Assembly (NCBI RefSeq): GCF_021631985.1
Contig: NZ_CP070225.1
Span: 3,534,001 to 3,598,000 of the forward strand
Length of the DNA: 64,000 nucleotides
From: Sandaracinus amylolyticus
GTDB taxonomy: Bacteria; Myxococcota_A; Polyangia; Polyangiales; Sandaracinaceae
Direction: 5' to 3'
Shown: positions 36,178-63,860 of the stretch, piece by piece
Layout: each line of letters begins with the position of its first letter
Position numbering within the stretch: position 1 is the stretch's first letter
The notes under the pieces: generated by a model
The model's input: the letters and a program-made list of their open reading frames with translations, nothing else
Database searches by the model: none
What the model was told of the DNA's origin: nothing
Translations under genes and position numbers: made by a program

Positions 36178-36290
36178 AGCTCGGAGTCGTCCGAGCACCG
36201 CCCCCCACACGCTCCGGTCGTCGCCCAGCGCGCCGCGGAACGTTCCTGGTCGCGCCCTGGCAGCTCCGGATCGCGTCCCGGCAGCCAGAA

Positions 36291-36540
36291 CGCATCCCGG
36301 AGATCACCGGACGCCGTTCTGGCGCGTCGGAACGCGTTCCGGAGATCACCGGACGCCGTTCTGGCGCCCAGAACGCATCCCGGCGCTCACCGGACGCCGT
36401 CCTGGCGCGTCGAGACGCGCTCCGCGCGCGCCGGAGCACGTCGTGGCACATCGAATCGCGATCCGGAGCTCACCGGACGCCGTCCGACGCGCCAGAACGC
36501 ATTCCGGAGGACCACCAGAACACGTTCCGGCACATCCGTG
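36291..36540. repeat. Six-unit tandem repeat of 41-43 nt in a non-coding region
   Basis: Units start at 36291, 36333, 36374, 36416, 36457 and 36498 (lengths 42, 41, 42, 41, 41, 43). Most open with CGC(A/G)(T)TCCGG, carry TCACCGGACGCCG in the middle and end in CCAGAA or a variant. Degenerate units flank it (about 36248-36290 and after 36541). The varying length breaks any reading frame after two units, so it is unlikely to encode a protein. With the hairpins at 36622-36900 it fills the 760-bp gap between two convergent transcription units; I see no gene here. Confidence 0.85.
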
Positions 36541-36621
36541 CGCATCCGGAAGCGCTGGGGCGAGGCCCGAAGGGCGAGCCCGATCAATTCGGCTCCACGA
36601 TGCCCGAAGGGCGAGTCGGTC

Positions 36622-60206: not shown

Positions 60207-61201
60207 GCGCGCACGATCCCGAGCTGCAGGACGCGCACCTCGTCGACGATCTCGAGTCGTCGCTCGATGCCGCCCGCACCGAGACGAAGCTCTCGCGCAG
60301 CGCGGTGCCACGCGACCTGCTGCGCACCGCGACGCGCGCCGGGCTCCTGCGCATGGCGCTCGAGGAGTGGGCGATGCTCGCGCTCCTCTGGATCGCGATG
60401 AGCATCGCGCCGTGGTGGTGCTACCCGGTGCTCGCGCTGCTCGTCGCGGGGCGCCTGCACGCGCTCGGCATCCTGATGCACGACTGCTCGCACATGCCGA
60501 TGCCGGGCAGCCGCAAGGACCTCGTCGTGCGCGTGCTCGAGGTGCTCTGCGCATATCCGATCGCGACGACGATGAACGCGATGCGGTACCACCACCTGCG
60601 CCACCACCGCGACAGCGGCATGCGCAGCGACCCGTACTTCAAAGCGAACCTCGAGGGCCGCCCGCTGATGTACGCGCTCAACGTGCTGCGGGGCGCGGTG
60701 CTGATCCCGTTCTGGACGCTGCGCGTGCCGGTCGGTCTGCTCGCGGTCGTGTGGCCGCGCGCGCGCAACGTGTACGGGCGCGTCTGGCTCCAGGACAAGT
60801 CGGGCAAGGACCTCACGCATTCGCGGGAGGTCGTCGACTGCGGTCGCGCCGAGCTCGGCCAGGGCGTGTTCCAGGCGCTGGTGATCGCGGCGTGGATCGC
60901 GTGGCCGCGCGAGGTGCTCTTCGGCTACGTGATCCCGGTGACGATCACCGGGCTGCTCGCGGCGTGGCGCCTCCTGCAGGAGCACAACTACGTGCGCGCC
61001 GAGGATCGCAGCCTCGCGACGATCCTCGCGACGACGAACGATCACCACATCCGATGGGTCGACAAGCTCGTGCTCGCGCCGCGCAACATCGGGCACCACG
61101 TCGCACACCACCTGCACCCGCAGGTCGGGCTCGAGCACCTGCCCGCACTGCGCGCGTGGTACGCCGAGCGCTTCCCCGATCGTTATCCGCGCCCGCAGTG
61201 A
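60203..61201 (+). CDS. Fatty acid desaturase-like membrane protein (2)
   Basis: A 332-residue desaturase with the canonical three histidine boxes: LMHDCSHMPM (H93-H97), HHLRHHRDSG near 130 and GHHVAHHLHPQVGLEHLP near 295, plus four membrane segments. The last box (HHLHP…H) is that of acyl-lipid or sphingolipid-type FA_desaturases. It differs strongly from the desaturase on the other strand nearby, so they are not recent duplicates. ATG 60203 overlaps the hydrolase stop. Confidence 0.9.
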   Translation: MSAHDPELQDAHLVDDLESSLDAARTETKLSRSAVPRDLLRTATRAGLLRMALEEWAMLALLWIAMSIAPWWCYPVLALLVAGRLHALGILMHDCSHMPMPGSRKDLVVRVLEVLCAYPIATTMNAMRYHHLRHHRDSGMRSDPYFKANLEGRPLMYALNVLRGAVLIPFWTLRVPVGLLAVVWPRARNVYGRVWLQDKSGKDLTHSREVVDCGRAELGQGVFQALVIAAWIAWPREVLFGYVIPVTITGLLAAWRLLQEHNYVRAEDRSLATILATTNDHHIRWVDKLVLAPRNIGHHVAHHLHPQVGLEHLPALRAWYAERFPDRYPRPQ

Positions 61202-61273
61202 TTGCGCGCGTCGTGATCGCGCGTAAGGCTGCGCGCTGTTTCCGGTCTCGCGGACTGATCGCCGCGAAGCCTC

Positions 61274-61345
61274 GGGCGGGTAGCTCAGCGGCAGAGCAGA
61301 GGTTTTACACACCTCGGGTCGCAGGTTCGATCCCTGTCCCGCCCA
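61274..61345 (+). tRNA. tRNA-Val(TAC)
   Basis: A 72-nt cloverleaf: acceptor GGGCGGG/CCCGCCC, D arm GCTC…GAGC, anticodon arm GAGGT/ACCTC with loop TTTACAC (anticodon TAC, reads GTA), T arm GCAGG-TTCGATC-CCTGT and discriminator A. CCA is not encoded. The 3' flank holds no T-run. Confidence 0.92.
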
Positions 61346-61474
61346 TCGATCGCCGCCGCGCCGGGTCGGCTCGATCCCACGCCGGTCGACGAGCGCGCGC
61401 CTCCCGTGTGACGCGAGCGCGCGCTGCATCGTCACGACCGCACCCGACGCGTGGCGCGCACGCCGAATGACTTC

Positions 61475-61689
61475 GCACGACGGGTGCCGACGCGTGTCCG
61501 TGCTCCCGTTCGGATCACGAGGACCCTCCCGACGCGTGTCTGGTGCCTCCGATCAGATCCCACCGCGCGTCCCGACGCGTGTCTGGTGCCTCCGATCGAA
61601 TCCCACCGCGCGTCCCGACGCGTGTCCGGTGCCTCCGATCGAATTCCACCGCGCGTCCCGCCACGCGTCCGGTGCCTCGTGGCGGACGC
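61475..61689. repeat. Five-unit 43-nt tandem repeat downstream of tRNA-Val
   Basis: Units of exactly 43 nt start at 61475, 61518, 61561, 61604 and 61647. The core is CCCGACGCGTGTCTGGTGCC then TCCGATCGAATCC, with CACCGCGCGT opening units 3-5. A degenerate unit may precede (61432). The 61346-61814 gap otherwise contains no gene; the tail up to 61800 carries one isolated partial unit (CCACGCGTGTCC). The repeat does not look like IS or CRISPR: no spacer variety, no leader, no cas gene. Confidence 0.88.
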
Positions 61690-61801
61690 AGAGCGCGCTC
61701 ACGCCGCGACTTCCAGCCCGTCCTCGCGATCCCACGCGTGTCCACGCCGGCCAGCACACCGCGGCCGATTCCGCCACTGCCGGTCGACGACGCCTGCGCT
61801 G

Positions 61802-61807
61802 TATCCT
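61802..61807 (+). promoter_or_regulatory. Candidate -10 box (TATCCT) close to the lipoprotein start
   Basis: GTATCCTCGCG lies seven bases before ATG 61815, matching the box before the GHL10-like gene. There is no ribosome site between box and ATG. Confidence 0.35.
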
Positions 61808-61814
61808 CGCGGGC

Positions 61815-63860
61815 ATGCGCTTCTCTGCTTGCCCGTGGGTCGCCGTGCTCTCCGCGCTGCTGCTCGTCGCGTGTGGCGACGACGATGGGAGCGCCGATCC
61901 CGATGCCGGCACGCCCGACGCGGGCCCCTCGTACCCAGTCGAGTGCGAGAACATCAGCCCGATGGACTGCCTGCTCCCGTGGCCGTCCAGTCGCTACCTC
62001 GCCCCGGACGAGACCACCGCGACGGGCGTGCGCATCGAGATCCCCGAGGCCGCGATGCCGCGCAACTTCCGCGCGGTGCCGGCCGATCCCGCCATCCTCT
62101 CGCGCTTCGACGGATTCAGCGCGGCGACGTCGATCATCACCGCGTTCGCCGACATCGATCCCTCGAACCTGCCCGACGAGGAGCACATCGAGGACAGCCT
62201 CGCGCAGGGCTCGCCGACCGTGCTGATCGACGCCGAGACCGGCGAGCGCGTCGCGCACTTCGCCGAGCTCGACACCTGGGAGTACATCGATCCCGCGCGC
62301 CGTCCGCTCTACATCCGCCCCGCCGCGCGTCTCGCGCAGCAGCGCCGCTACCTCGTCGCGATCCGCGATCTCCGCCACACCGACGGCAGCGCGATCGAGC
62401 CCTCCGCGTACTTCCGCGCGCTGCGCGACGACACGCCGCTGCCCGACGCGAGCGACATCGAGTCGCGGCGCGCGCACTTCGAGGACGTCTTCACCCGCCT
62501 CGAGGCCGCGGGCGTCGATCGCGCGACGCTGGTGGAGGCGTGGGACTTCCAGACCGGCACCGACGAGATCGCGTGGCACGACACGATCTCCGTGCGCGAT
62601 CAGGGCCTGCGCGCGATGGCGACCGACACCGCGCCGCGCTGCACCGTCACGACGACGCGCGATGCGCCGCGCGCCGAGATCTGGCGTGAGATCGAGGGCA
62701 CGGTGCGCGTGCCGCTCTTCCTGCGCGGCACCGACCCCAACTCGTTCGACGAGTCGACGCTGAGCCGCGGCGACGACGGCGAGCCGGCGCAGAACGGCTG
62801 GGCCGACGTGCCGTTCATCATCCGCATCCCGAACAGCGTGCGGGCGCGCGTGGCGGCGGGTGGCGAGCCGGTGCGTCTGCTCGACTACGGCCACGGCCTC
62901 TTCGGCGATCGCTTCGGCGACGGCGGGACCGTCAGCCGCACGATCGAAGCGAACGAGATGGTGTCGGTGCAGATCGACTGGTGGGGCTGGTCGCGCGACG
63001 ACGTGACGCGCGTCGCGCAGACGCTCCAGGACTTCTCCGAGTTCGTGTCGTTCGGCGAGCGCGCGGTGCAGGGCGTCGCGAACCACGTGTTCCTCCACCG
63101 CGCGTTCTCGGTGGAGGGAGGCTGCGCCGAGCTCGAGGAGCTGCAGATCCCGCTCGACGCCGGTGGCGGCACCGCGCCCGCGATCGATCGCGAGGAGCTC
63201 TACTACTACGGCAACAGCCAGGGTGGGATCTTCGGGCTCTCGCTCGCGGGCATCGCGGTCGACGTCGATCGCTTCGTGCTCGGCGTCGGCGGGATGACCT
63301 ACTCGGTCATGATCCCGCGCTCGTCGAACTGGGTGACGTACGGCAGCATCATGGAGCTCGGGTATCGCGATCCGCTGCAGCGCTCGATGCTGATGGTGCT
63401 CGCGCAGTCGCTCTTCGATCTCGCCGAGCCCGCGACGTACGCGCCGCACGTGCTGCGCGATCCGCTGCCCTGCGCCGACGACGTCTGTGCGTCGGGCGCG
63501 ACTCCGCTCAAGCACGTGCTCTCGCAGATCGGTCGCGACGACGCGCAGGTGCCGAACGTCGCGGCGCACATCGCAGCGCGCACGATGGGCATCGGGTACG
63601 CGAGCCCCGCGCCCTACGAGCCGTGGAACATGGAGGCGCTCACCGCGGACATGGGCGCGTCGCTCGGCACCGACGCGATGGTCGTGTACGACATCCCCGA
63701 AGTGCCGGTGCTCCCGCTCGGCACGCGCAATCCGGGCGGCGACAACCCCGCGCACAGCGGGGTGCGCGAGTCGCCCGCGGCGGTGGAGCAGATCGATCTC
63801 TTCCTGCGCCCCGACGGAACCGTCGTGCAGACGTGCGACGGGGTCTGCGACCCGACCTGA
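61815..63860 (+). CDS. Large lipoprotein with alpha/beta-hydrolase (lipase-like) domain
   Basis: A 681-residue lipoprotein (LSALLLVACGDDD lipobox) with a short Asp/Pro linker. The N-terminal part (ECENISPMDCLLPWPSSRYL…) recalls the N-terminal domain of bacterial virulence-factor lipases (Pla-1/cef/VolA type). The C-terminal half has LLDYGHGLFGDR, a nucleophile elbow YYYGNSQGGIFGLSLAG (Ser near 467) and a late His (NPAHSGVRES). Four Cys in pairs suggest disulfides. It is probably an outer-membrane lipase or esterase. The family link is by pattern only. Confidence 0.78.
   Translation: MRFSACPWVAVLSALLLVACGDDDGSADPDAGTPDAGPSYPVECENISPMDCLLPWPSSRYLAPDETTATGVRIEIPEAAMPRNFRAVPADPAILSRFDGFSAATSIITAFADIDPSNLPDEEHIEDSLAQGSPTVLIDAETGERVAHFAELDTWEYIDPARRPLYIRPAARLAQQRRYLVAIRDLRHTDGSAIEPSAYFRALRDDTPLPDASDIESRRAHFEDVFTRLEAAGVDRATLVEAWDFQTGTDEIAWHDTISVRDQGLRAMATDTAPRCTVTTTRDAPRAEIWREIEGTVRVPLFLRGTDPNSFDESTLSRGDDGEPAQNGWADVPFIIRIPNSVRARVAAGGEPVRLLDYGHGLFGDRFGDGGTVSRTIEANEMVSVQIDWWGWSRDDVTRVAQTLQDFSEFVSFGERAVQGVANHVFLHRAFSVEGGCAELEELQIPLDAGGGTAPAIDREELYYYGNSQGGIFGLSLAGIAVDVDRFVLGVGGMTYSVMIPRSSNWVTYGSIMELGYRDPLQRSMLMVLAQSLFDLAEPATYAPHVLRDPLPCADDVCASGATPLKHVLSQIGRDDAQVPNVAAHIAARTMGIGYASPAPYEPWNMEALTADMGASLGTDAMVVYDIPEVPVLPLGTRNPGGDNPAHSGVRESPAAVEQIDLFLRPDGTVVQTCDGVCDPT

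Follow-up and report, generated by a model that had tools for sequence, protein, structure and literature searches.

The GTAG- and CGTC-tagged repetitive extragenic palindromes (REP/BIME) are short, palindromic and intergenic, and favour convergent spacers and the 3′ ends of genes. Within one family they keep a single sequence genome-wide; the GTAG types accompany RAYT transposases, and the CGTC types occur without a dedicated transposase (PMC3733652). A second system, the tandem repeats of archaeal Borgs, has originated independently at many sites with differing sequences, evolves fast and is near-absent from related genomes; its units are perfect, about half of the repeats lie within genes, and they are enriched in A (PMC9879509).

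The array described here lies in a 64,000-nt stretch of the Sandaracinus amylolyticus genome, hereafter the window, and belongs to a class of tandem arrays that occupy intergenic DNA and are specific to the genus. Like REPs, the arrays of this class favour convergent spacers; unlike REPs, they mostly differ from one another in sequence, with just one four-locus subfamily in this genome, and their units follow one another head-to-tail in tandem. As in Borgs, they appear to arise separately, vary in sequence, evolve fast and are near-absent from related genomes, whereas those studied here are intergenic, consist of imperfect units, are confined to a period of ~42 nt and contain dyads. With bacterial minisatellites (VNTRs) they share a head-to-tail intergenic arrangement, copy-number change, seen here between sister species, and putative homogenisation within a locus; to our knowledge, ordinary VNTRs do not have one unit length common to unrelated sequences.

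A tandem array between tRNA-Val and a predicted lipoprotein gene

The 43-nt repeat adjoining tRNA-Val is a real tandem array, as seen both by TRF and from the positions of its core (Table 1). TRF reports, at 61527-61678, a period of 43 with 3.5 copies, 93% matches and a score of 248, the sole array of such strength nearby; the core, CCCGACGCGTG(T), is present in six copies, one at the start of each unit, with core-to-core spacings of 43, 42, 43, 43 and 43 nt. The initial annotation had correctly recognised a tandem 43-nt repeat, but counted five units at constant spacing, four of them well conserved; good conservation is found in three full, near-identical units (units 3 to 5) and a partial one (61657-61678). 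In the first two units and the remainder of the last, little is retained besides the core.

Table 1. Features of the window array and its surroundings (positions in the window).
Feature	Position	Strand	Basis
Another array of this architectural class, unrelated in sequence, in a convergent spacer, period 41/83	36262..36547	.	
tRNA-Val (anticodon TAC), preceding the array	61274..61345	+	ARAGORN; Rfam RF00005, 66.5 bits
Tandem array, period 43, six cores, CCCGACGCGTGTCC	61443..~61690	+	TRF and core positions
Unit 1, core of the 'first' type, GACGCGTGGC, reverse-complementary to the last core	61443..61485	+	
Unit 2, 42 nt, degenerate beyond the core	61486..61527	+	
Unit 3, conserved	61528..61570	+	
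Unit 4, conserved	61571..61613	+	
Unit 5, conserved	61614..61656	+	
Unit 6, 'last' type core GCCACGCGTC	61657..61690	+	
TATCCT, probable −10 element, 7 nt ahead of the downstream gene's ATG	61802..61807	+	Sequence comparison, inference
Predicted lipoprotein gene, family unassigned	61815..63860	+	Coding model; lipobox-type N-terminus MRFSACPWVAVLSALLLVACGDDD

Because the period of 43 is not divisible by 3 and the coding model places the start of the gene after the array, the array is non-coding and a coding repeat is ruled out; the reading frame stays open upstream, across the array, solely as a result of the high GC content. Rfam covariance models applied to 60900-62200 match the tRNA alone, and the array fits no known structured RNA; likewise, a search of 61200-61900 for an intrinsic terminator (a hairpin followed by a U tract) found none. 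A 12-bp direct repeat (GCCGGTCGACGA) flanks the array at 61381-61392 and 61779-61790, 398 bp apart, and may be due to chance in such GC-rich DNA.

Whereas the flanking tRNA-Val and the lipoprotein character of the downstream product are in line with the initial annotation, the lipase-like nature given to the latter is unconfirmed, the gene having no match among Pfam and NCBIfam models. Hexamers resembling TATCCT also precede the lipoprotein gene in relatives, and the array probably sits upstream of this gene's promoter, to judge by the position of the putative −10 element. The closeness of such a hexamer to the ATG, in this gene (window 61802-61817) as well as in its relatives, suggests a leaderless transcript.

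The succession of tRNA-Val(TAC) and lipoprotein gene is a conserved pair, found in another member of the genus (G002) and in four genomes from other genera of the family (G004, G007, G008 and G009), in all of which a spacer of ~40-95 bp without an array lies between the two. Since the spacer is array-free in G002 and in the other genera, the window array must have arisen after the split from G002. In the sister species (G001), ~3 kb of additional DNA separates the tRNA from the array.

A class of intergenic arrays with one unit length

Four blocks of this genome (1.66 of 10.96 Mb, ~15%) were scanned de novo, with arrays called by TRF and genes by a hexamer model trained on the same four blocks. 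In this sample, 25 intergenic arrays have a period of 25-60 nt, and in 22 of them it is 40-45 nt (binomial P = 1e-14); further intergenic arrays lie at half (20-22) or double (83-86) this period. This sharp peak bears out the earlier proposal that the repeats of the window belong to a general class of elements. The most frequent periods are 41 and 43, not 42. Within genes, array periods are divisible by 3 and show no general peak at 40-45, yet seven coding arrays have a period of 42. The observed density of about one array per 70 kb extrapolates to ~150 intergenic arrays in the whole genome; outside the TRF arrays, coding sequence that the gene calls missed blurs the autocorrelation.

Unit sequences are mostly unrelated from array to array, and no k-mer is common to all arrays, by which a universal sequence motif is rejected. 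The two arrays of the window exemplify this: they are unrelated in sequence, as the initial annotation had stated, but both belong to one architectural class. That unrelated sequences nearly all have a period of 40-45 implies a constraint on how long the unit is and what shape it has, but not on its sequence. The same class is present in the sister species (400 kb of its genome), whereas ~485 kb from three further genera of this family (G004, G005 and G007) yielded 0 arrays against 7-8 expected at equal density. In the literature searched, whose coverage was incomplete, arrays of this kind were not reported from myxobacteria.

Symmetry and folding of the units

A unit of this class, ~42 nt long, tends to have two imperfect dyads ~21 nt apart: its consensus, read as a circle, tends to equal its own reverse complement, which places two dyads half a period from each other. 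Dyad symmetry has a mean z of 1.65 over 24 arrays, compared with 0.05 for 150 control intergenic 42-mers (Mann-Whitney P = 1.5e-6); local dyads without a half-period partner are weakly significant (P = 0.03). REP units are palindromic; here the class shows dyad symmetry on average, and the units of the window array show little of it (P = 0.47).

Folded as RNA, single units from 27 arrays average a z of about −1.2, near-equal on the two strands, and three units of the window array together fold better than shuffles on both strands (z −2.8 and −3.0). Compensatory changes were not seen inside arrays, where three double changes fall on paired and three on unpaired positions; with variants thus uncompensated, selection on pairing is not supported. 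A permutation fold test of mirror-symmetric unit order gave −0.76 ± 0.14 with flanks, a value biased by moved flank pieces that break the array, and −0.36 ± 0.14 without flanks; the pairwise version of the test is biased by degenerate end units, and we take the signal as a whole to be weak.

Placement at gene ends

Of 36 convergent spacers, 9 contain an array, against 17 of 251 spacers of other kinds (odds ratio 4.6, P = 0.002). Arrays lie a median of 55 nt from the gene ends that face them and 140 nt from facing gene starts. In co-directional spacers, 10 of 13 arrays are closer to the end of the upstream gene (P = 0.09). Moreover, array-free 3′ flanks of genes fold more stably than shuffled sequence (mean z −0.82 and −0.84), in contrast to divergent 5′ flanks (−0.04); this richness in hairpins makes gene-end hairpins plausible as the seed of arrays.

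Turnover between sister species

Block A is collinear with the genome of the sister species, with ~92% identity of the flanking DNA. Six loci could be compared, each with an array of equal period in the two species (43/43, 43/43, 43/43, 42/42, 41/41 and 22-43/21-43), in which copy number or unit sequence has changed, in one case beyond recognition; place and period are kept while the sequence turns over fast. Copy number differs between the sister species at orthologous arrays, a comparison between species, whereas the minisatellite/VNTR criterion concerns strains. In addition, two arrays of the sister species are absent from this genome at otherwise aligned sites.

A genus-restricted sequence subfamily

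A sequence model of the window-array unit found a subfamily with the core GACRCGTGTCC, comprising 4 loci in this genome and 8 in the sister species; applied to 10 other genomes, the model found no array, and by this sequence criterion the subfamily is restricted to the genus. Three of its loci form orthologous pairs with diverged units. The core of the last full unit reads G-C-C...GTC at all 12 loci and that of the first unit GAC...G-G-C at 8 of the 12, so that first and last cores are reverse complements of each other, while inner cores (GAC...GTC) are near-palindromic. This first/last rule gives the subfamily defined ends, which may reflect end pairing, a mobile past or sequence history.

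A strand-specific reading of G-T pairs in the core at the RNA level was discarded as inconsistent, the core strand being sense or antisense depending on the locus. In genome coordinates, core orientation is uniformly plus in this genome (4/4, at 2.0-4.7 Mb); in the sister species it is minus at 2.8-5.5 Mb (6/6) and plus at 7.3 Mb (2/2). One subfamily array adjoins a predicted protein gene of unassigned function (C1:4733817-4734617), and an 82%-identical copy of this gene in the sister species (4685553-4686307) also borders a subfamily array.

Origin of the arrays

The best explanation, which we favour tentatively and at less than even chances, is local amplification of hairpin DNA from the 3′ flanks of genes, producing arrays that, if they have any effect, may act as multi-hairpin transcript ends or insulators. 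The seed at each locus would be a short inverted-repeat (hairpin) DNA, mostly from a gene 3′ flank or terminator-like, which would be duplicated in tandem, independently per locus, either through replication slippage aided by the hairpin or through unequal exchange, and whose units would afterwards be homogenised within the locus. The most likely effect, if any, would be that of a hairpin chain that can be read from either strand and that terminates or insulates transcription; at the window, the array would separate tRNA-Val from the promoter of the lipoprotein gene. Support comes from the period peak with its half and double periods, the lack of a common motif, and the dyad symmetry and RNA folding of the units, as well as from the convergent enrichment, the hairpin-rich array-free 3′ flanks and the retention of place and period while units change; the two sister arrays missing here and the array-free tRNA-Val spacer in five relatives point the same way. 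The explanation is weakened by the low dyad symmetry of the window array and its lack of a U-tract terminator, by the uncompensated changes and by the co-directional count of 10/13; moreover, hairpin slippage alone does not account for so narrow a period.

Nearly as much is accounted for by neutral minisatellites, that is, by a lineage-specific habit of replication or repair that duplicates ~42 nt and leaves functionless arrays surviving where they are harmless, in convergent spacers and off promoters. This is quite possible, though we would not call it probable: fast turnover, presence or absence between sister species, and the lack of both a shared motif and covariation all agree with it, and the depletion of arrays in divergent spacers is the outcome to be expected if purifying selection removed arrays that damage promoters, but most comparable arrays keep position and period despite replaced sequences, dyad symmetry exceeds that of other intergenic DNA, and the subfamily follows its first/last core rule.

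Beyond hairpin amplification as such, the arrays might form a class defined by architecture, a ~42-nt unit whose two dyads stand ~21 nt from each other, and independent of sequence, held in place while its sequence is rewritten, in which a cellular factor or a DNA or RNA structure reads length and symmetry alone; we consider this rather unlikely. The occurrence of one repeat length in many unrelated sequences of one genus implies that a length of DNA or RNA is being measured by a mutational machine or a selective filter. Identifying this length-measuring cause would explain the birth and upkeep of intergenic repeats in large GC-rich genomes, and would also tell whether multi-hairpin arrays replace classical terminators there.

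The initial annotation had proposed protein binding sites in helical phase, which in strict form would mean dimers bound to dyads every two turns along a single side of the helix. Two features agree with such sites, namely periods close to 2, 4 and 8 turns at 10.5 bp per turn (20-22, 40-45 and 83-86) and dyads about half a period apart, but the arrays share no motif or k-mer, periods of 41 and 43 drift by ~34 degrees per unit, about half a turn over five units, and outer units lose all but the core; strict phasing is less likely than the favoured amplification of hairpin DNA, and in our judgement improbable. These results are nevertheless compatible with a protein that reads shape.

Least probable of all is spread as a dispersed or mobile element with definite boundaries, at least for the GACRCGTGTCC subfamily: the core common to 12 loci in two species, the reverse-complementary ends (GCC in the last full unit, GGC in the first) and the sister locus adjoining a copy of a gene that borders another array would suit it, but PF01797 (Y1/RAYT) is absent from both genomes (G000 and G001) while being detected in the E. 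coli control, the two absent sites show no clear target duplication, and most arrays stand outside any shared sequence family.

Separate from these arrays, a dispersed family of 74-90-nt repeats (GAGCACTCCGGC...CTCGCCCGCAGGTCCCTACCGTCCGCGCGC) is present in 2-4 tandem copies at many intergenic sites, among them C1:3675652, 3833882, 4579260, 4844943 and 4889854 in this genome and ~3643785 in the sister species, and several long hexamer-repeat arrays (GCGTGA, CACGCT, CTCGCC) lie within 5 kb at C1:4629426-4634193.
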